From: Candidatus Poribacteria bacterium
GTDB lineage: Bacteria > Abyssobacteria > SURF-5
Reading direction: 5' to 3'
Assembly (NCBI GenBank): GCA_016215705.1
Contig: JACRIR010000113.1
Location: 1-9,886, forward strand
DNA length: 9,886 bases
The position numbers were made by a program, and so were the translations under genes. Below are positions 2,178 to 9,886 of this stretch, piece after piece. Position 1 is the stretch's first letter. Each line of letters starts with the position of its first letter. The notes under the pieces are model-generated. The model did not search any database. It was given only the letters and a program-made list of their open reading frames with translations, and was not told the origin of the DNA.

Positions 2178-3668
2178 TCAAGGGATTGCGACAGGCGTGG
2201 GATGGGGCAGGCGATCCCGGACAAACGTGATTCGAAAGATGGAGCCTTTGCCGGGTGTCGATTCGATGGCAATCGTTCCTCCGTGCTCCTGCACAATCCT
2301 GCGTGTGATAAGGAGGCCGATGCCAGTTCCGCCCGCGCCCTTTGTCGTAAAGAAATTGGTGAAGACACGCTGCTTGGTTTCATAGTCCATGCCACAGCCG
2401 GTGTCTTCGACCTCGAAGACCAGGCTCCCATTTTCATCGCGGCAGCGCACAAGCACATGGCAATCCGGTTTGTCACTCATCTTGCAGGCATCGATCGCGT
2501 TGGAGACCATGTTTGTCAAACACTCGTGTATGCCGGCGCAATCTAATGGCGCGGGCCGGACATCTTCGCCGGGCTCACCGATAAGCTCGATTCCATGCTG
2601 CCGGGCGGTTTCTTGAAACAGCGCGACTACTTCAAGCACAAGTCGCCCGGGGTCTGTGATTTCTACTTTCGCGACGCCGCCTTTCGAAAAGTTGATAAGA
2701 TTCTTTGTGAGAGTGGAAATCTTTTCGATGTTGCGATTGAGCATTTTCCATCCTTCGTCGGTTCGCGCTTGCTCGCCCTTCTTCAGGCCGGAATTGAAGA
2801 CATACATGGCGCCTTCGAGACCCGTCAGAATGTTCTTGATTCCGTGGGCGAGGCCTGCGACGGTTTGGCCCACCGCCGCGAATCGTTCCGCCTCGATTTT
2901 TTCGCGTTCGAGCCGCCGCGTTTCCGTGAGGTCGAGGGCCATTTCAATCACATGAGTGATATGACCGTTCCCGGTCAGAAGCGGGGAAGCGTTGACGTTA
3001 TAGTAAGTTGTCTCACCACGTTTGTTTGTTCCGACATGACTGGAACTATGGCCCTGACCATCTGCGAACGTCTGCTCGGCCGGACAGTCCTCGCACTTTT
3101 CCCATCGGTGCTTGAGAACTTTATAGCAGTGTCTTCCGAGATAATCTCCAAAAACCTCGCGAACCCGTTCGTTTGCGCACACTATCCGCAGGTCGTTGTT
3201 GATCACCATCACGAAGCACGGAACACGATCGAAGAGCGTTTGGTATTCCTTCTGCAAGCGTTTGGTCTCCGTGACGTCTATGGAAAGTTCCGCCACGTGT
3301 GAAATGCCGCCATCGGGGCCGGTAATCGGAATGACATGGACCAGGTAATGTGTCTTTCGGCCCTTGTGGTCGATGCCAACTTCGTCGTTGACGCGCGGCT
3401 TGCCGTCCGCAAATGTCTGGGCCGCCATACAGTCGCGGCAACTCTCGCTCAGGCCTTTGTAAGCCTCATGGCATTTCCTGCCTTTTCCTCTGCCGAAGAC
3501 CTCGCGGAATTTCTGGTTCTCCGCAACGATTGTGAAGTCGCGATTGATTATTGCTATGCAGCACGGCACATGCTCAAAGAGTTGGTGACTCAACCACTGT
3601 TCCCATTCCCTTTGGGCCACGATTCCCCTTCTTGACGCCGGCCGGTTTCCCATAGTCATGCCATTCAT
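2178..3668 (-). CDS. Soluble sensor histidine kinase with two cysteine-bearing PAS domains
   Basis: 496 residues, no membrane helix or signal peptide, so a cytoplasmic sensor. Order: PAS1 (about 28-135), PAS2 (about 143-252), HisKA-type dimerisation helix with phospho-acceptor His275 in AGLAHGIKNI, then the HATPase_c domain: N-box NMVSNAIDA (386-394), EDTGCGM (421-427), F-box VFTNFFTTK and GGTGIGL (446-452). All catalytic boxes look intact. The H-box is HGIKN rather than the commoner HEIRNP. The two PAS domains look like a tandem duplication: each has VPC (Cys36, Cys151) and then C-x10-C-x2-C with identical spacing (Cys66/77/80 and Cys181/192/195), followed by the same QTFADG. Such cysteines could bind a metal or a redox cofactor; that is inference. 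No response regulator is adjacent. The ATG at 3668 has a weak ribosome site; the GTG at 3620, behind AAGGGG, is an alternative start. Confidence 0.9.
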   Translation of the reverse strand: MNGMTMGNRPASRRGIVAQREWEQWLSHQLFEHVPCCIAIINRDFTIVAENQKFREVFGRGKGRKCHEAYKGLSESCRDCMAAQTFADGKPRVNDEVGIDHKGRKTHYLVHVIPITGPDGGISHVAELSIDVTETKRLQKEYQTLFDRVPCFVMVINNDLRIVCANERVREVFGDYLGRHCYKVLKHRWEKCEDCPAEQTFADGQGHSSSHVGTNKRGETTYYNVNASPLLTGNGHITHVIEMALDLTETRRLEREKIEAERFAAVGQTVAGLAHGIKNILTGLEGAMYVFNSGLKKGEQARTDEGWKMLNRNIEKISTLTKNLINFSKGGVAKVEITDPGRLVLEVVALFQETARQHGIELIGEPGEDVRPAPLDCAGIHECLTNMVSNAIDACKMSDKPDCHVLVRCRDENGSLVFEVEDTGCGMDYETKQRVFTNFFTTKGAGGTGIGLLITRRIVQEHGGTIAIESTPGKGSIFRITFVRDRLPHPTPVAIP

Positions 3669-3674
3669 CCTATT

Positions 3675-3717
3675 GGAAAATCGGGGACACGATGCCTCAT
3701 CGTGTCCCCGATTTTCC
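3675..3717. terminator. Perfect 20-bp palindrome, bidirectional-terminator-like
   Basis: Arms 3675-3694 and 3698-3717 are perfect reverse complements around the 3-nt loop CCT. The core stem is GC-rich (GGGGACACGATG with its complement), with GAAAAT-like A-rich outer pairs on one side and ATTTTC on the other, as in bidirectional intrinsic terminators. On the minus strand it lies 133 nt past the stop of the respiratory operon and only 6 nt before the kinase ATG, so it could end the operon transcript, act as a leader hairpin for the kinase, or both. The GGGGACACGAT core also resembles dispersed palindromes seen in environmental genomes, so a mobile REP-like origin is possible. Confidence 0.6.
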
Positions 3718-3850: not shown

Positions 3851-5404
3851 CTAATGGGCTACCGAATTGACCTGTCCATTCAGAGACTGCGCTGTTTCGA
3901 GGCGCAGCCCTGCCGGGAAGACAGTCTCTTTTTCTTCATGGCATTTCGTGCAGCCGACGGGTCCGACTCCCATATTCCTGTGGCATCCCAAACACATGCG
4001 ATGATAGGCGCTGATTAGTCTTGGTTTTGCCAGCCGCGTGAAATTGAGTGTTGATCCATGGCACGTGTTGCAGGCGGGCATCTCCTTCTTCGGTCCGTAG
4101 TGATGACACGTGTCGCAGCTTTCTATCATCTTTGTGTGTTGCTGATGGGGGAATTTCACCGGCAAATATTTCTTTGAGAGGCTTGCGATCACCGATGTCT
4201 CGGGCCCCTTTTCGAGGGAAATTGCAACCTGCAACGCGGCCAATTGTGGCGTCGCGGGCTGTCCCTTATGGCATTCTTTGCAAGTAACGGGAGCTTTTGC
4301 TTGCGCCTTTCCCGCTTGTTTGTTCTTTTGTTTGTGACAACCGACACACGTATGCTCGGAGTCAGGTTCGTGGTAGGTCCTGTCTGCGTTAAGGACGTCG
4401 GCGCGCGCCGGAACATCGCCGTTCTTGTGGCATTGCCGGCAGGCGTCGCCGGTCTTGGCAAAATGCGTGTCTATGCCGACAAGAGTGCGCACGTGGAAGT
4501 GATGGCAGGCCTTGCTGCACGTGCTGTCCTTGTCGTGTTTCTCGTGGTTGAAGGGAACCGGGGGAAGTATGGCGCCGGGGGAGCTAATCAGGAGGTCCTT
4601 GGGTTTCTTCTCGAACGTGCGCGCAACAAGCGTCGTTGTTTCGACCGGCTTCACGTTGGCTTCCGGCTTATGACATTCCCGGCAAGAATACGGCTCCATC
4701 TTCGTTTCTCCCCCAAGGAACAATTTCTCATGACATCCGATGCAACTTTTGTGGCCCGCTTTGCGGAGCGATTCCGAATTTCCCTCGTCCGTATCCTTAT
4801 GGCATTTTCCGCAAGCGGTTTCCTGGCCTCGTATGTAAACGAGCTTACACTGATGTTCGTCGTACGCATGATGGCACTTGTCGCAGCCCTTCTCCATTTC
4901 GCTGATGTGATGGAAATGGTCAAAAACCGCCTTATACCATTGGACGGGCTGGTGTCTCAATCGGTCATTGTGACACTCTCCGCAACTGAGCGAGCGACTC
5001 CGGACTCCTTCAGGAGCAGCGCCGCCGTGACACTTCATGCACGCCGCGTGGTATGAGTCCGTGAGGGATTTCCGGTTGAGTCGCCCCTCAAACCGGGCAA
5101 ACTCGTAGGTCACCCTTCCCTTTGCGTCCGCGTTGTGACAGACCAAACACCCTTCCTTTTTGAGGGCCTTCGTGTGTCGGCCGTGGTCGAAAAACACTGC
5201 AGCGCGGTCGAGTTCCTCGAATAGTTGCGGACGCGGCATCACGAGCAGCGTCTCGATCTTGTTTTTCTCGGCAGCCTGCACTGCCGCAGGCGCCTTAGAC
5301 GACAAACCCGTTCCCTCGGCGGAACGGCTACACCCTGTATTGGTTGAGGCGAGAAATAAGAGCGCCGCTGCCGCAAACAATTCGTTAGTCCAATGTCGAA
5401 GCAT
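3851..5404 (-). CDS. 15-heme periplasmic cytochrome c, HmcA-like, of the Hmc/Tmc redox complex
   Basis: About 517 residues (520 if the ATG at 5413 is used). The start at 5404 is preferred because AAAGGA lies 8 nt before it, whereas at 5413 that sequence runs into the start codon. In the numbering from 5413, an N-terminal hydrophobic export signal ends near Cys28 (NTGC, a weak lipobox), so it may be lipid-anchored. Fourteen CXXCH motifs start at Cys89, 125, 144, 177, 201, 224, 244, 325, 356, 378, 433, 448, 474 and 488. A fifteenth site is CX3CH (CSKACH at 299). FxHxxH-type motifs open four modules (FDHGRH 75, FDHFHH 164, FNHEKH 288, FPHQQH 421), giving 3+4+4+4 hemes: one c7-like and three c3-like units. 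HmcA has 16 hemes with a similar modular build. The role is electron exchange between periplasmic c3 cytochromes or hydrogenases and the membrane subunits. It is the last gene of the operon, just after the CCG protein gene. Confidence 0.88.
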   Translation of the reverse strand: MLRHWTNELFAAAALLFLASTNTGCSRSAEGTGLSSKAPAAVQAAEKNKIETLLVMPRPQLFEELDRAAVFFDHGRHTKALKKEGCLVCHNADAKGRVTYEFARFEGRLNRKSLTDSYHAACMKCHGGAAPEGVRSRSLSCGECHNDRLRHQPVQWYKAVFDHFHHISEMEKGCDKCHHAYDEHQCKLVYIRGQETACGKCHKDTDEGNSESLRKAGHKSCIGCHEKLFLGGETKMEPYSCRECHKPEANVKPVETTTLVARTFEKKPKDLLISSPGAILPPVPFNHEKHDKDSTCSKACHHFHVRTLVGIDTHFAKTGDACRQCHKNGDVPARADVLNADRTYHEPDSEHTCVGCHKQKNKQAGKAQAKAPVTCKECHKGQPATPQLAALQVAISLEKGPETSVIASLSKKYLPVKFPHQQHTKMIESCDTCHHYGPKKEMPACNTCHGSTLNFTRLAKPRLISAYHRMCLGCHRNMGVGPVGCTKCHEEKETVFPAGLRLETAQSLNGQVNSVAH

Positions 5405-5416
5405 CGTATTCATCCT

Positions 5417-6793
5417 TTACGCTTTCAAATGTTGAGGGATTTCCATTGCGTCCACAAGTATTTCGCAGATGAATTTGGTGTGCATACCCAGCTTGTAGTA
5501 CTTGATAATGTCCTCGATGCCGCTGTGGCAATTGTGGCAAGGAGTGACAATCACTTTCGCTCCCGTCGCCGCCAATTGGTCCGCTTTTACCTTGATGCTC
5601 AGCATTCTGGACTTCTTCCACGGAGGCCCGCAGTTGATCACGCCTCCGCCCGCCATGCAGCAATAATTATGTTCGAATCTGGGGCTGACGTCGCGGAAAT
5701 CCTCGCAGAGCGCGTTCATGATGTATCGGAGTTTCTGGCCGAGTCCCAAACCCCTCACAATATTGCATGGGTCCTGGACAGTAATGGGTTCTTTGAATTT
5801 ATTGACAATCTTGATTCTGCCGCTCGTTATGAGGTCGTAATAGAAATCCACCGCGTGGACCATGGGAATGGGAGGATTCTTCCACGTGAGCCATTTAGGG
5901 CCGTCATAGACTGCGCCTCGAAAAGCGTGTCCGCACTCGCCCATCACGATCCTTTTCACTTTCAGCCGAAGCGCGGTCTCGTAATGTTGGCGTTCGACCC
6001 GGCCCATCGTTTCGAAGTCACCCGAATACATGGCCATATTGCTGTTATCCCATCCGTCGGTCGCGGGCATTGTCCAATCGAGACCGGCAATGGTCATGAT
6101 CTGCGCCATATAGTTGATGAGCTGCGCGAGAATCTTGGGTTCGGGCGCGATTACCGAGTACATGATATCGGCGCCCTCTTTTTCGAGAGGGATGCGGGCC
6201 TTTGCTATCACGCCCTGCGCGTCTTCTTCCTGCCATTGAAGAGTGTCAATCCACTCGTCTCGCTGCACCCACATCTGATTCGATGTGGCGGCATGGCTGT
6301 TTGTCGTGTCTTGAAGGTACGCGGGCACGACGCCGAGAAGATTGCAGACTCTGCGAACGACAAGAATCAGATAGGCTATGTCAATTCCGAACGGGCAGTA
6401 CATGCTGCACCGGCGACAAGCGCCGCATTCGGTGAACGCTATTCTCGCCGCATTCTTGATGAACTCGGCGTCAACTTTTCCCTTTCGTTTGACCATCTCC
6501 CAAAGGGTGTTCTTCACTTTGGCGACGGGCGAGAACTCCGGGTCCTTGTCGCGGGAAAGATACGTGTGACATGCGTTGGAGCACAGGCCGCAATGCACGC
6601 ACGTGTCCAGATACACGCGCAGCCGACCCGCGGTCTCCTTTTCCATGACCCTTTTTATGGTGCTCTCGATTCTCTCGGGGGTCAATCTCTTGATAGTGTC
6701 ATCCAATCCGCGATCAGGGGACATTTGCTCGGGACCAAGTTTTCTCGGCATCCGTTCCGACTTTCCGCTCAAAACCGTCTGTATGAAACCCAT
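5417..6793 (-). CDS. tmcB: TmcB/HmcF: cytoplasmic [4Fe-4S] CCG-domain (HdrD-like) subunit
   Basis: 458 residues, no membrane helix, so the cytoplasmic electron-transfer module. Two [4Fe-4S] ferredoxin sites come first: C65-x2-C68-x2-C71-x3-C75 and C123-x2-C126-x2-C129-x3-C133. Two CCG-type regions follow. The C-terminal one is complete (Cys343, Cys378-Cys379 in CCMAGGG, Cys419-x2-Cys422 in TPCHNCHSG), the pattern that holds the special cluster in HdrB/HdrD. The first retains only GECGHAF (Cys287) and is degenerate. This architecture and length fit HmcF and TmcB, which pass electrons between the membrane cytochrome b-like subunit and a cytoplasmic partner whose identity is still debated. The TmcB name is chosen because tmcC- and tmcD-type genes sit directly upstream. 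The ATG at 6793 follows GGAGG with 9-nt spacing. Three nucleotides separate its stop from the first ATG of the cytochrome gene. GlcF and succinate dehydrogenase-type proteins were considered and fit the context less well. Confidence 0.88.
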   Translation of the reverse strand: MGFIQTVLSGKSERMPRKLGPEQMSPDRGLDDTIKRLTPERIESTIKRVMEKETAGRLRVYLDTCVHCGLCSNACHTYLSRDKDPEFSPVAKVKNTLWEMVKRKGKVDAEFIKNAARIAFTECGACRRCSMYCPFGIDIAYLILVVRRVCNLLGVVPAYLQDTTNSHAATSNQMWVQRDEWIDTLQWQEEDAQGVIAKARIPLEKEGADIMYSVIAPEPKILAQLINYMAQIMTIAGLDWTMPATDGWDNSNMAMYSGDFETMGRVERQHYETALRLKVKRIVMGECGHAFRGAVYDGPKWLTWKNPPIPMVHAVDFYYDLITSGRIKIVNKFKEPITVQDPCNIVRGLGLGQKLRYIMNALCEDFRDVSPRFEHNYCCMAGGGVINCGPPWKKSRMLSIKVKADQLAATGAKVIVTPCHNCHSGIEDIIKYYKLGMHTKFICEILVDAMEIPQHLKA

Positions 6794-6833
6794 ATTTCAC
6801 AGCCTCCACCTAATACAAACCCGTTTCCTCGGG

Positions 6834-7481
6834 TTACCAATCCTTTGCATGTCTTACTGCTCCACACTCAGAGCCCATATACGCCCTCGTGAAAACGAAA
6901 AATAGCATGTGGCTGAGCCGCGTGAACGGAATGGCAACCAGCATAATGGCGCCGGCCCATATATGCAGCGTCACCACAGTTCTATAGGAAAGCCATTGAT
7001 GATACGCCAGGAATCCGGTCAAAAAAGGGGTCGCGACAAGCGCGACAAGGACATAATCCGACCATGACGTCACGTATTTCACCTCAGGCGCTCTAACCCT
7101 CCGCGCGACAAAGAAGGCGCATGCAAGAATGACCACCACGGTCATAACGTCCGCCAGAACGGGCGGAAGGGTCCAGAAACTGAAGCCCCAAGCTCGCCGC
7201 AGGAGGACATTATGCGCCATCAAAAAGATGGGTGAGAGCAGTAGGCAGAGGTGGAATGCAAAAGTAACGATCGTGAAGACGGGACGCATTCTCATGTTTG
7301 TGCTCCCGAACGGGACGATCCAATGCGCTATGGAAAGCAGCCCATGCTTGAGGCTCATATAGGGATATACGACCTTGTCCTTCTTCGCCATCGAAAACAT
7401 CCGGAAAAGGCGCCAGCCACACCCTCCAAAGAAGAGAATGAAGGCGACCCATACCAGCGGGCCGGTTGCAAACTCATACAT
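6834..7481 (-). CDS. tmcC: TmcC/HmcE: cytochrome b-like membrane anchor subunit
   Basis: 215 residues from the start at 7481 (217 from the ATG at 7487). AAGGAG lies 8 nt before 7481 but only 2 nt before 7487, so 7481 is preferred. In the numbering from 7487 there are five hydrophobic helices at about 9-28, 70-92, 110-127, 144-163 and 171-199. Helix-associated histidines (His79, His92, His163, His175, His193) are candidate heme b ligands, as in NarI-like subunits. The segments MSLKHG, IVPFGS, HLCLLLSPIFLMAHN and FLTGFLAYHQW match my recollection of TmcC closely and HmcE more loosely. The protein links periplasmic cytochrome to the cytoplasmic CCG protein across the membrane. Its gene lies 40 nt upstream of tmcB; that gap contains a small dyad (AACCCG/CGGGTT) beside the tmcC stop and the tmcB ribosome site. 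Confidence 0.85.
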   Translation of the reverse strand: MYEFATGPLVWVAFILFFGGCGWRLFRMFSMAKKDKVVYPYMSLKHGLLSIAHWIVPFGSTNMRMRPVFTIVTFAFHLCLLLSPIFLMAHNVLLRRAWGFSFWTLPPVLADVMTVVVILACAFFVARRVRAPEVKYVTSWSDYVLVALVATPFLTGFLAYHQWLSYRTVVTLHIWAGAIMLVAIPFTRLSHMLFFVFTRAYMGSECGAVRHAKDW

Positions 7482-7506
7482 TGTCATATCTCCTTGGATT
7501 CACAAA

Positions 7507-8808
7507 TCAGAGAATCTCATATGCCGGAACAATACGGCGATAGTATTTGCCATCCTCGACGGCTTTGACGAGAAGACTGGAACCGTCCGGACTGAACAAC
7601 GGATTCCACAACGCTTCAAAACCCCGACTCCAGACCTTGCCGTCAATGGCGATCGAATACCGGCCGTTCCTCTCGATTTTGGCGGCGACCCTGGAACTGT
7701 CCGGGCTGAATACCGGGTCCCAAACCATGTCAAACTCTTCAGTCCAGGGGACACCATCCACAGCAATCGTCCAGCGGTTTCTATCTTTCACAACCGCGGC
7801 TATGCGCTGGCTGTCAGGAGAGAAGACGGGTTCCAGAACCGCATCGTCGTATGTTTTCTCCCATGCGGAGTCATCCACTGCTATAGTCCACTTACCGAAT
7901 GCGGGCGCGACCACAGCGGCGATTCTCTTTCCATTTGGGCTTATCTTTTGATGCCAGAGTTGCGCATACCGGCCGCTCCAGGCCGGGCTTCCGTCCCGGG
8001 CCAGTGTCCAGCTTCCTTCCGTCCTCACGGGCGCTATCACGGCGCCGTTGTCCGGCAGGAACGAAGGCTCCCACACACAGCCGAATTTCTCATTCCAAAG
8101 CAGATTATCCCTGGCGATTGTGTACTCGCAGATGTCCAGCCGGACCTCGACGGCGACGTGTCTGTCGTCCGGACTGATCGTGGGACAATACACATTTACA
8201 AAATTCCTGTCCCACGTCTTATCGTTTACGGCAACGGTCCACGTGCCTTCCATAAAGCCGAATATATCGGCCTCCTTGAGCGGGACCGATTGGACGATCG
8301 CGGCAACCTTGTCCCCGGCGGCGCTGACGGCCAAGTCTCGGATGGAGATGAATTCATGGGACCACAAATCGCCGTCCACAACAATCCTGTACTTCATGTC
8401 ACGTTTGGCTTGAGCCGCAATGACTTTTCCGTCCTTGCTGAACATGGTGTTCCATGCGTACTCGAACTTTTCCTCCCACGGCCGGCCTTCCACGGCAACC
8501 GTCCACTCGTCATCATCGCGCACGAGGACGGTGAGTCGGCCGTCGGGGCTGAATCTTGGATACCAGAGCACTTCGAACGTCTGGTCCCATACGGTCCCAT
8601 TGACGCACATTGTGAATCGGCCGTCGTCGATCTTCACCGGCGCCGCGAATCGCTCGCCGTCCGGACTCACCACGGGCTCATGAACGACAGGAAACCGCTC
8701 TTTGATTTCTCCGACGTCCGCCAATAATTTCTCGCTTGTTCCCCAGTCGATCTCCGGCGGTCCGTCTTCGACTGCAACCTTTGAATCAGCGACCTTGATA
8801 TCTTGCAT
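7507..8808 (-). CDS. tmcD: TmcD-like tryptophan-rich repeat protein of the electron-transfer complex
   Basis: 433 residues from the start at 8808, or 439 from the ATG at 8826. The 8808 ATG has AGGATGG 8 nt upstream; the 8826 ATG is preceded only by a pyrimidine tract. No signal peptide or membrane helix, so probably cytoplasmic. From about residue 48 (8826 numbering) the protein is nearly all repeat: about nine full units of 37-49 residues plus a closing half unit. Each has a WTIAVDGxxW-like strand, then FExxWxPxFSPDGxxxAA. I count 21 Trp in 439 residues. Periodic SPD/G turns and paired strands predict a WD40/TolB-like beta-propeller. TmcD of the Desulfovibrio Tmc complex is known as a tryptophan-rich protein of unknown role, and the position next to tmcC and tmcB supports this call. 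No cofactor motif is visible; a docking or scaffold role is a guess. Its stop is 19 nt before the first ATG of tmcC. Confidence 0.78.
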   Translation of the reverse strand: MQDIKVADSKVAVEDGPPEIDWGTSEKLLADVGEIKERFPVVHEPVVSPDGERFAAPVKIDDGRFTMCVNGTVWDQTFEVLWYPRFSPDGRLTVLVRDDDEWTVAVEGRPWEEKFEYAWNTMFSKDGKVIAAQAKRDMKYRIVVDGDLWSHEFISIRDLAVSAAGDKVAAIVQSVPLKEADIFGFMEGTWTVAVNDKTWDRNFVNVYCPTISPDDRHVAVEVRLDICEYTIARDNLLWNEKFGCVWEPSFLPDNGAVIAPVRTEGSWTLARDGSPAWSGRYAQLWHQKISPNGKRIAAVVAPAFGKWTIAVDDSAWEKTYDDAVLEPVFSPDSQRIAAVVKDRNRWTIAVDGVPWTEEFDMVWDPVFSPDSSRVAAKIERNGRYSIAIDGKVWSRGFEALWNPLFSPDGSSLLVKAVEDGKYYRRIVPAYEIL

Positions 8809-8826
8809 TGGATCATCCATCCTCAT

Positions 8827-8861
8827 AAAAAAGTGAAAAGTAAAAAGTTGAAAGTTAAAAA
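8827..8861 (-). promoter_or_regulatory. Pyrimidine-rich leader directly upstream of tmcD
   Basis: Read on the transcribed strand this is an almost pure T/C/A tract of repeated AACTTTCAACTTTTTACTTT-like words ending beside the first possible tmcD start. It lies in the 106-bp gap after the hmcD-like gene, by far the largest spacer inside the operon. GTTGTGAAAG (about 8880-8889) can pair imperfectly with CTTTCAAC in the tract, with a 2-nt bulge. Similar low-complexity tracts occur as dispersed intergenic sequence in anaerobes. A role in translation or internal termination is possible but not shown. Confidence 0.3.
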
Positions 8862-8932
8862 CCGAACTGACACTTTTCTTTCACAACTGACCACGCTCCG
8901 TCGTGATGATGTGCTCCTGAGAAACCGGCCGC

Positions 8933-8971
8933 TTATTGGGGGACACCTTGCGGCAAGGTGTTCCCGAATAA
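8933..8971. repeat. 39-nt inverted repeat covering the hmcD-like stop codon
   Basis: Arms 8933-8950 (TTATTGGGGGACACCTTG) and 8954-8971 pair around the loop CGG. Sixteen of 18 positions are Watson-Crick, one is a G:T-type wobble and one a mismatch. On the transcribed strand the TAA stop is the very end of the hairpin. No T-run follows, so it is not a classical terminator; mRNA stabilisation, partial termination or a REP-like insertion are the options. It shares the GGGGACAC word with the palindrome at 3675-3717. Confidence 0.65.
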
Positions 8972-9214
8972 TGGGGCGTTTGCTCCGACCGAGGCCGGCG
9001 ACGGTTCCGCGGCGCCCGTCTGCGCCGCCTCTACATGAGACTCCACGGCATGTGACTGTCCTTGACCTTTCCGCATCACTTTATACGCGTCGACGAGCGA
9101 CTTGACGACAACATAACAAAGACCGGTAAGAATGATAAACACTACGGTATAGAAAAGCCCGAAGAAGATCATGTGGCCTGCATCCCAGCGGAATTCGAAT
9201 GCTGTCGGAAACAC
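8933..9214 (-). CDS. Small one-helix membrane protein, HmcD-like
   Basis: 93 residues with one strong membrane helix (about 15-38, MIFFGLFYTVVFIILTGLCY) followed by a basic stretch (KSLVDAYKVMRKG) and a low-complexity Ala/Ser/Pro/Glu tail. The start is GTG at 9214 behind a near-perfect AGGAGG with 7-nt spacing, 16 nt after the NrfD-type stop, so co-translation with that gene is clear. In the Hmc operon a small single-helix protein, HmcD, occupies this place after HmcC. The match is by size class, helix and position, not by a conserved motif. The tail is longer than I expect for HmcD, and its last ~13 residues (LFGNTLPQGVPQ) are encoded by a palindrome that also supplies the stop codon, suggesting a late insertion that rewrote the C-terminus. 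Confidence 0.65.
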   Translation of the reverse strand: MFPTAFEFRWDAGHMIFFGLFYTVVFIILTGLCYVVVKSLVDAYKVMRKGQGQSHAVESHVEAAQTGAAEPSPASVGANAPLFGNTLPQGVPQ

Positions 9215-9230
9215 GATTTTTCCTCCTTAT

Positions 9231-9886
9231 CTACGCCTGATTCCGGGTGTTCAATTCATGTTCAAGAGGGAAAAGACGCAAATAGCGATACGCCAGCGAG
9301 AACACGATCACGCCATAGGCGATCACTGAACCGGTGATTGCCCATTCCTGCCACGTCGGCGTATAGACCATGAATCTCTCGAACGGCAGCACGGGTACGG
9401 ACAGTGTCTGCACGGTCATGACGAACCTGTCTATCACTACGCCGACACATACGAACAGGCAACCGACGACCAGCAAGAAATCGTTCTCGCGCGCTTTCGG
9501 GATCAGCAAAAGAACCGCAGGCAGCAGCCCGAACGCGAAGAGTTCGAGGAACAACAGTTCCATGCCGTAGGCGCCCTGGTAGAAGTCCGCGAACTTGAAT
9601 CCCGCTTTCGGCGCTGTGACGTTTGCCCAATAGACGGTATCGGCCGCTTTGCATAACAGGTAGGCCGCCAACAGTATGCTCGATAGCTTCGCGAGACTCG
9701 AAAGCGTGGACCTGCGGACCAGTCTCCGTTTGGTGATCTTCTGCATGGTCCATACGACCAGCACGATAAGTGAGGGGCCGGCCGTTATCGCGGACAAGAT
9801 GAACAGGAAAAATGTCCACGGCCATATGGCGATGCCCGTCCTGTACGAAAACGGACGCGCGTGCAATGCGCCGAACATTCCGCCGA
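9231..9886 (-). CDS. nrfD: NrfD/HmcC-like quinone-interacting membrane subunit (5' part beyond the window)
   Basis: The frame runs open into the right edge; about 217 codons are visible and the ATG at 9878 is probably internal, since NrfD/HmcC proteins are usually 300-400 residues. What remains is the C-terminal half: the segment RTGIAIWPWTFFLFILSAIT at the start, then hydrophobic helices around FILSAITAGPSLIVLVVWTM, LSSILLAAYLLCKAADTVYW, GMELLFLELFAFGLLPAVLL, DFLLVVGCLFVCVGVVIDRF and AITGSVIAYGVIVFSLAYRY. The helix set and the VCVGVVIDRFVM segment are typical of NrfD/PsrC/HmcC proteins, which have no heme and exchange electrons with menaquinone through an adjacent ferredoxin subunit. In Hmc that partner, HmcB, is encoded immediately upstream of hmcC, so it is expected just outside the window. 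Other NrfD-type complexes (Qrc, Dsr) are less likely given the Tmc/Hmc genes downstream. Confidence 0.85.
   Translation of the reverse strand, partial: GGMFGALHARPFSYRTGIAIWPWTFFLFILSAITAGPSLIVLVVWTMQKITKRRLVRRSTLSSLAKLSSILLAAYLLCKAADTVYWANVTAPKAGFKFADFYQGAYGMELLFLELFAFGLLPAVLLLIPKARENDFLLVVGCLFVCVGVVIDRFVMTVQTLSVPVLPFERFMVYTPTWQEWAITGSVIAYGVIVFSLAYRYLRLFPLEHELNTRNQA

Follow-up and report, generated by a model that had tools for sequence, protein, structure and literature searches.

We analyzed a 9,886-bp stretch of DNA (hereafter, the window) that constitutes an entire contig (JACRIR010000113.1, here C22) of a 5.47-Mb metagenome-assembled genome (MAG), G000, of a Candidatus Poribacteria bacterium (Abyssobacteria in the GTDB lineage). 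Six consecutive minus-strand genes occupy positions 9884-3851 of the window, as an initial annotation of the sequence had placed them, and they encode a QrcD-type NrfD-family subunit, a small protein (orfX), TmcD, TmcC, TmcB, and a 15-heme cytochrome c (cyt15). C22 ends within qrcD, which is therefore incomplete in the window. The last 141 bases of another contig of the same genome, C13, overlap exactly with the end of C22, and C13 carries qrcA, qrcB, and qrcC followed by the N-terminal part of a QrcD at the contig end. Joining the two contigs yields nine genes in the order qrcABCD-orfX-tmcD-tmcC-tmcB-cyt15. This order is identical in G001 and G002, the two sampled relatives, where one contig each carries all nine genes, which confirms the join. 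These relatives belong to the same family as G000 but to different genera and are the only other genomes of the phylum sampled; the arrangement is thus known from three MAGs of a single family, and its conservation across three genera makes the gene order better than chance. The initial annotation had proposed a survey for the same gene order, which both relatives show, and an extension of the contig in search of an HmcB-type ferredoxin; in the joined sequence, qrcC and not hmcB stands before qrcD.

Composition of the nine-gene cluster

Since the NrfD-family gene had been annotated as HmcC-like, we compared it with NCBIfam profiles. The half present in the window scored 269 bits (E 7e-80) with QrcD versus 35 bits (E 1e-8) with HmcC, and the joined protein scored 582 bits with QrcD (cut-off 570) versus 97 bits with HmcC. 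Together with the qrcABC neighbors, where qrcC precedes qrcD, these scores rule out an HmcC identity. QrcA (197 bits, cut-off 180) and QrcB (448 bits, cut-off 440) also pass, QrcC (386 bits) falls just below its cut-off of 400, and all four subunits are present in order. QrcD residues D70, Y110, D120, S138, and Y150 (Desulfovibrio vulgaris numbering), which lie in the C13 half, are kept in all tmc-linked copies, while R358 and E413 were not placeable in our comparison. These five residues are proposed or have been shown to be important for quinone binding and proton uptake (residues and mutant data in PMC13059093). Qrc passes electrons from cytochrome c3 to menaquinone in an electrogenic reaction and can act in reverse (PMC6303296). 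Electrogenic menaquinone reduction with electrons from TpI-c3 is characteristic of Qrc, and the Qrc of the cluster may share it. Like the Qrc of Desulfobacterota, the latter has four subunits, the same gene order, the quinone-site and proton-path residues of QrcD, and a small protein after qrcD. It differs in being joined by position to tmcDCB-cyt15, in being duplicated in the phylum, and in its QrcA, which has five CxxCH motifs, whereas D. vulgaris QrcA is listed with six hemes (PMC8076601).

The second qrcABCD-orfX copy lies elsewhere in all three genomes. It is followed in each by an 8-heme cytochrome gene (L019 11392-12999, L173 6782-8131, and L174 13982-15403), which pairs Qrc with another kind of cytochrome. 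G000 also carries, on contig C68 (L037 5258-10270), a distant Qrc/alternative-complex-III-like cluster with a five-heme protein, QrcB-like (34%) and QrcC-like (52%) proteins, and a DsrP-like NrfD protein.

orfX had been called HmcD-like. Its N-terminus, MFPTAFEFRWDAGHMIFFG, matches small proteins encoded directly after qrcD elsewhere; the pattern M-x-P-x2-F-E-[WF]-x-W-D-x2-H-x2-F is common to post-qrcD proteins of ~50-58 amino acids in many Desulfobacterota, and in each of the three genomes it recurs in the protein encoded after the second qrcD copy. Proteins in the HmcD position, the HmcC-HmcE interval, of two hmc loci (L088 and L090) look unlike it, and an HmcD identity was not recognizable when judged by motif, without an HmcD profile. 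orfX is best called a Qrc-linked small protein.

TmcB, TmcC, and TmcD are encoded together, and the identities first assigned to them stand. TmcD (550 bits, cut-off 440) and TmcC (313 bits, cut-off 240) exceed their NCBIfam cut-offs, and TmcB, at 715 bits just under its cut-off of 735, scores best with its own model (HmcF, 387 bits). Four His residues of TmcC and the Cys residues of both 4Fe-4S motifs and the CCG motif of TmcB are invariant in 43/43 homologs. TmcB matched no solved structure by sequence; TmcD matched two WD-40 repeat entries, weakly, and had no match in viral contigs. The Tmc part had also been read as running in reverse. At the surveyed Tmc loci (Desulfobacterota and named loci of other phyla), however, the genes run tmcD, tmcC, tmcB, and then tmcA or hmcA where present, in one direction, which rules out a mirrored order. 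Since D-C-B-A is the usual transcription order, nothing is reversed in the window, and the letters A-D of tmc do not reflect transcription order. At locus L090, tmcDCBA is followed by hmc genes, and in Desulfococcus multivorans hmc lies downstream of tmcA, which fits the same order (PMC5109826). The cluster therefore resembles the Tmc (TmcABCD) of Desulfovibrionales and Desulfobacterales in its TmcD, TmcC, and TmcB homologs, D-C-B-cytochrome order, and conserved Cys and His residues, but unlike canonical Tmc it has a 15-heme HmcA-type cytochrome instead of tetraheme TmcA and an upstream qrcABCD-orfX, and its TmcDCB falls outside the TmcA clade.

cyt15 has exactly 15 CxxCH/CxxxCH motifs, in agreement with the initial count. 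It scored 230 bits with the HmcA model (cut-off 400) and 123 bits with TmcA-type repeats (cut-off 114), but TmcA is a tetraheme acidic cytochrome, and its model matches only as repeats within the 15-heme protein. The closest solved structures are 16-heme HmcA proteins (PDB 2e84, 1gws, and 1h29), of whose 16 heme columns cyt15 retains 15; the same column is lost in all three genomes. Directly after cyt15 we found no hmcB in G000, nor within the next 4 kb in G001. The cluster is like Hmc (HmcABCDEF) in its HmcA-derived cytochrome and in its plan of a cytochrome with NrfD-type, NarI-type, and HdrD-type subunits. Unlike Hmc, the window lacks HmcB, HmcC, and HmcD, TmcC and TmcB replace HmcE and HmcF, and the cytochrome has 15 hemes, not 16. 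Elsewhere in G000, on contig C50 (L035 2882-7951), genes for DsrK/HmcF-like, TmcC/HmcE-like, HmcB-like, and HmcC-like proteins (the last an open reading frame with six CxxCH) stand in a row, all under cut-off.

The genes are closely spaced, with 16 bp between qrcD and orfX, 106 bp between orfX and tmcD (versus 47 and 12 bp in its two relatives), and 3-40 bp from tmcD to cyt15. Between positions 3500 and 9886 of the window, the coding strand showed no sigma-70-like promoter, and terminator-like sites occur at chance level. Each of the three genomes has a sigma-54-type -24/-12 site (TGGCAY-N5-TTGC) upstream of qrcA, exact in two of them and accompanied by a divergent second site; we found no good site of this type in the window interior, and for the second qrc copy it was poor or absent in the stretches checked. 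Together, these findings suggest that the nine genes would be co-transcribed. The coordinates of the features are listed in Table 1.

Table 1. Features of the window
Feature	Position	Strand	Basis and remarks
qrcD, C-terminal half (profile positions 196-408)	9231..9884	-	remainder and qrcABC on C13, locus L018 10564-15431
orfX, 93 amino acids, one likely membrane helix, post-qrcD family	8933..9214	-	N-terminal motif, position
tmcD, cytoplasmic beta-propeller-like subunit, PD40 repeats (PF07676)	7507..8826	-	NF045725; no signal peptide by eye
tmcC, NarI-like membrane cytochrome b subunit	6834..7487	-	NF045723
tmcB, DsrK/HdrD-like iron-sulfur protein, two 4Fe-4S motifs and one CCG domain	5417..6793	-	NF045724
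cyt15, HmcA-derived 15-heme cytochrome c, lipoprotein-type signal (by eye), tmcA/hmcA position	3851..5413	-	heme motifs, HmcA model
PAS-PAS histidine kinase, immediately downstream of the operon; possible regulator, counted outside the complex	2178..3668	-	follows cyt15 in G001 too

Between cyt15 and the histidine kinase gene, at about 3675-3717, lies an inverted repeat whose 20-bp arms match perfectly around a 3-base loop; it could be a terminator or a repeat element. By eye, genes for PAS-AAA-Fis-type regulators lie near qrc on C13, and an orange protein (ORP)-like group lies upstream of qrcA (L018 2448-6124), comprising two MinD-type ATPases with ferredoxin inserts and small NifX-like proteins, and accompanied by two PAS-AAA-Fis regulators.

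tmcDCB-hmcABC hybrids and the origin of the cluster

The initial annotation proposed that Hmc and Tmc parts share one operon. This holds in other organisms: a hybrid layout of tmcD-tmcC-tmcB-hmcA(15-17 hemes)-hmcB-hmcC is found in Desulfomonile, Thermoanaerobaculales (Acidobacteriota), Myxococcales (Myxococcota), Phycisphaerae (Planctomycetota), and Nitrospiraceae (Nitrospirota), as well as in many further Desulfobacterota, and thus in at least five phyla (loci L023-L028, L030, L098-L101, L105-L107, L109-L115, L186, and L189; some hybrid contigs of the listed taxa end within hmcB). In the window, on the other hand, the quinone unit is Qrc and there is no HmcD. The operon does combine an NrfD-family quinone subunit, a Tmc core, and an HmcA-family cytochrome, but its NrfD subunit is not that of Hmc. 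The window resembles the hybrids in that its TmcDCB shares a clade with several of them and a multiheme HmcA-type cytochrome follows tmcB; it differs from them in having no hmcB or hmcC beside the cytochrome, Qrc in cis, and one heme fewer than the usual HmcA.

Qrc was absent from 20/20 hybrid genomes and present in 16/17 TmcA-type genomes (Fisher p 1.3e-9, uncorrected for shared ancestry). When TmcA-type genomes have both, qrc and tmc lie on separate contigs or far apart. A literature search returned no description of a tmcDCB-hmcABC or qrc-tmc operon, but most subscription papers lay outside that search, which makes this weak evidence of novelty, and either layout may have been described before.

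In a tree of TmcB, TmcC, and TmcD (43 loci, 1084 columns), the three Qrc-linked loci formed one clade (support 100/99), nested in a clade (100/99) that otherwise consists of hybrid loci of Planctomycetota, Myxococcota, and Acidobacteriota. Forcing the TmcDCB of the window together with the canonical Tmc clade was rejected (p-AU 1.5e-5). A placement of all subunits within one known clade of common gene order, which had been named as refuting the initial proposal, holds in half: TmcDCB belongs to the tmcDCB-hmcABC hybrid clade and the D-C-B-cytochrome order is common. An HmcF-rooted TmcB tree failed to order the deepest branches, and on this tree the hybrid may or may not predate canonical Tmc. 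Both QrcD copies of the three genomes formed one clade, and the duplication predates the split of these genomes; within it, the tmc-linked copies of the three genomes cluster apart from the second copies (support 86). In the simplest history, hmcB and hmcC would have disappeared from an ancestral tmcDCB-hmcABC operon, and one copy of qrcABCD-orfX, from a duplication specific to the lineage, would have come to lie upstream and serve in their place, giving a Tmc/HmcA-type module with a replaced quinone unit.

Proposed electron routes and competing explanations

We consider it probable that this one cluster couples a full Qrc to a Tmc conduit through the HmcA-derived cyt15, with two exits for electrons and an origin in which qrc replaced hmcBC. 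Our data establish gene content, order, and conservation, the TmcDCB phylogeny, the kept active-site residues, and the presence of DsrC; co-transcription, the electron path, the direction of flow, and a physical association go beyond them and are inferred. Hydrogenase, formate dehydrogenase, or c3-type cytochromes would supply cyt15 with low-potential electrons in the periplasm. At the first exit, electrons would pass from cyt15 through QrcA/QrcC to menaquinone at QrcD, where cytoplasmic protons would be consumed and proton-motive force generated. At the second exit, they would pass from cyt15 through the b hemes of TmcC and the CCG iron-sulfur site of TmcB to a cytoplasmic disulfide, most likely that of DsrC. 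Tmc is known to pass electrons from cytochrome c3 on to the sulfite branch, with DsrC as the probable recipient (PMC4215793), and a two-exit hub is likely because of this role together with the known role of Qrc (PMC6303296). The suggestion in the initial annotation that the complex links three pools (periplasmic cytochrome, menaquinone, and a cytoplasmic carrier) fits, since the operon holds matching parts.

AprA and DsrC are present in all three genomes (loci L036, L134, and L175-L178), and G000 has AprAB-QmoABC, DsrMKJOP, DsrN, and a DsrC with two C-terminal cysteines, whose gene lies near DsrMKJOP. The NIR_SIR matches examined comprise AsrC-like proteins of 331-350 amino acids (the one scanned falls below the AsrC cut-off), an Asr-like protein of ~206-231 amino acids, and, in G002, an assimilatory-type protein. 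The three organisms may be sulfur respirers that use another sulfite reductase.

Several observations weigh against this two-exit interpretation. No DsrA was found at E 1e-30 in the three genomes, for which MAG incompleteness is a possible reason, and this puts DsrC-dependent sulfite reduction in doubt. Co-location is no proof of a joint complex, the linked qrc copy may be specialized or redundant given the second copy, and the 106-bp gap before tmcD could hide an unrecognized start site. cyt15 lies on a long branch (1.93) and its placement in the HmcA tree is not fixed; its derivation from the hybrid's own HmcA is therefore read from heme pattern and gene position. Support for grouping the window clade with the Myxococcota and Acidobacteriota hybrids alone is moderate (91/87), and the distributions of the hybrids and Qrc, uncorrected for shared ancestry, may partly reflect it.

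Among other explanations, we give about even odds to Qrc and Tmc being separate complexes that draw on a common periplasmic cytochrome pool and share an operon only to make both exits in step. Such an arrangement has been proposed for D. alaskensis, where Qrc as well as Tmc is important for hydrogen-dependent growth and TpI-c3 is proposed as their common donor (PMC4215793). The separation of qrc and tmc in the surveyed TmcA-type genomes also fits this model. However, cyt15 is of the HmcA type, which in the hybrids shares an operon with its own quinone unit, and the in cis replacement of that unit by Qrc suggests a closer tie between Qrc and Tmc.

A reverse or confurcating flow is unlikely; in it, proton-motive force would drive electrons from menaquinol out through Qrc, and/or cytoplasmic thiols would give up theirs through TmcB, to periplasmic and extracellular cytochromes. 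In its favor, QrcABCD is reversible (PMC6303296), the proposed direction of Hmc is towards the periplasm (PMC5109826), and 28 matches to a single cytochrome c3 model occur in the genome, some of them within open frames of >1200 amino acids; against this, the AprAB-QmoABC and DsrMKJOP set points to electrons being used for sulfur reduction, and Qrc has retained the residues that it requires to reduce quinone. We regard as more doubtful still a single physical Qrc-Tmc supercomplex, in which the 15-heme hub would split the periplasmic supply between menaquinone and DsrC and, in a phylum with the Apr-Qmo-DsrMKJOP-DsrC set but no DsrAB, DsrC would serve a different, Asr-like sulfite reductase.

An Hmc-Tmc hybrid with HmcC and a mirrored tmc order, as initially proposed, is very improbable here: true tmcDCB-hmcABC hybrids do occur in other phyla and cyt15 is HmcA-like, but the QrcD assignment and the C13 join, with qrcABC rather than hmcAB upstream, refute it for the window, orfX is of the qrcD-linked type, and D-C-B is the usual order. 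An assembly or binning artefact at the Qrc-Tmc junction can be practically dismissed, since the break of C22 inside qrcD, the 141-bp overlap join, and the second qrcD in the genome are countered by a junction within single contigs of two genomes of other genera and by the separate grouping of the linked QrcD copies.

Implications for Tmc, Hmc, and Qrc

One proposal holds that Tmc is a simplified version of Hmc, and sulfate respiration still lacks a settled account of how periplasmic electrons are shared out between menaquinone and the cytoplasm. Our survey suggests a module logic, in which a TmcDCB core either shares its operon with HmcABC or has a Qrc encoded at another place in the genome, and seldom lacks both. 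The phylum of the window represents a third arrangement, with Qrc within the same operon. A 2021 survey confined Qrc to Deltaproteobacteria (PMC8076601), and our findings extend its range past that group if the phylum of the window is counted apart. Altogether, these arrangements make the relationship between Hmc and Tmc, as well as the need of Tmc for a quinone partner, testable.

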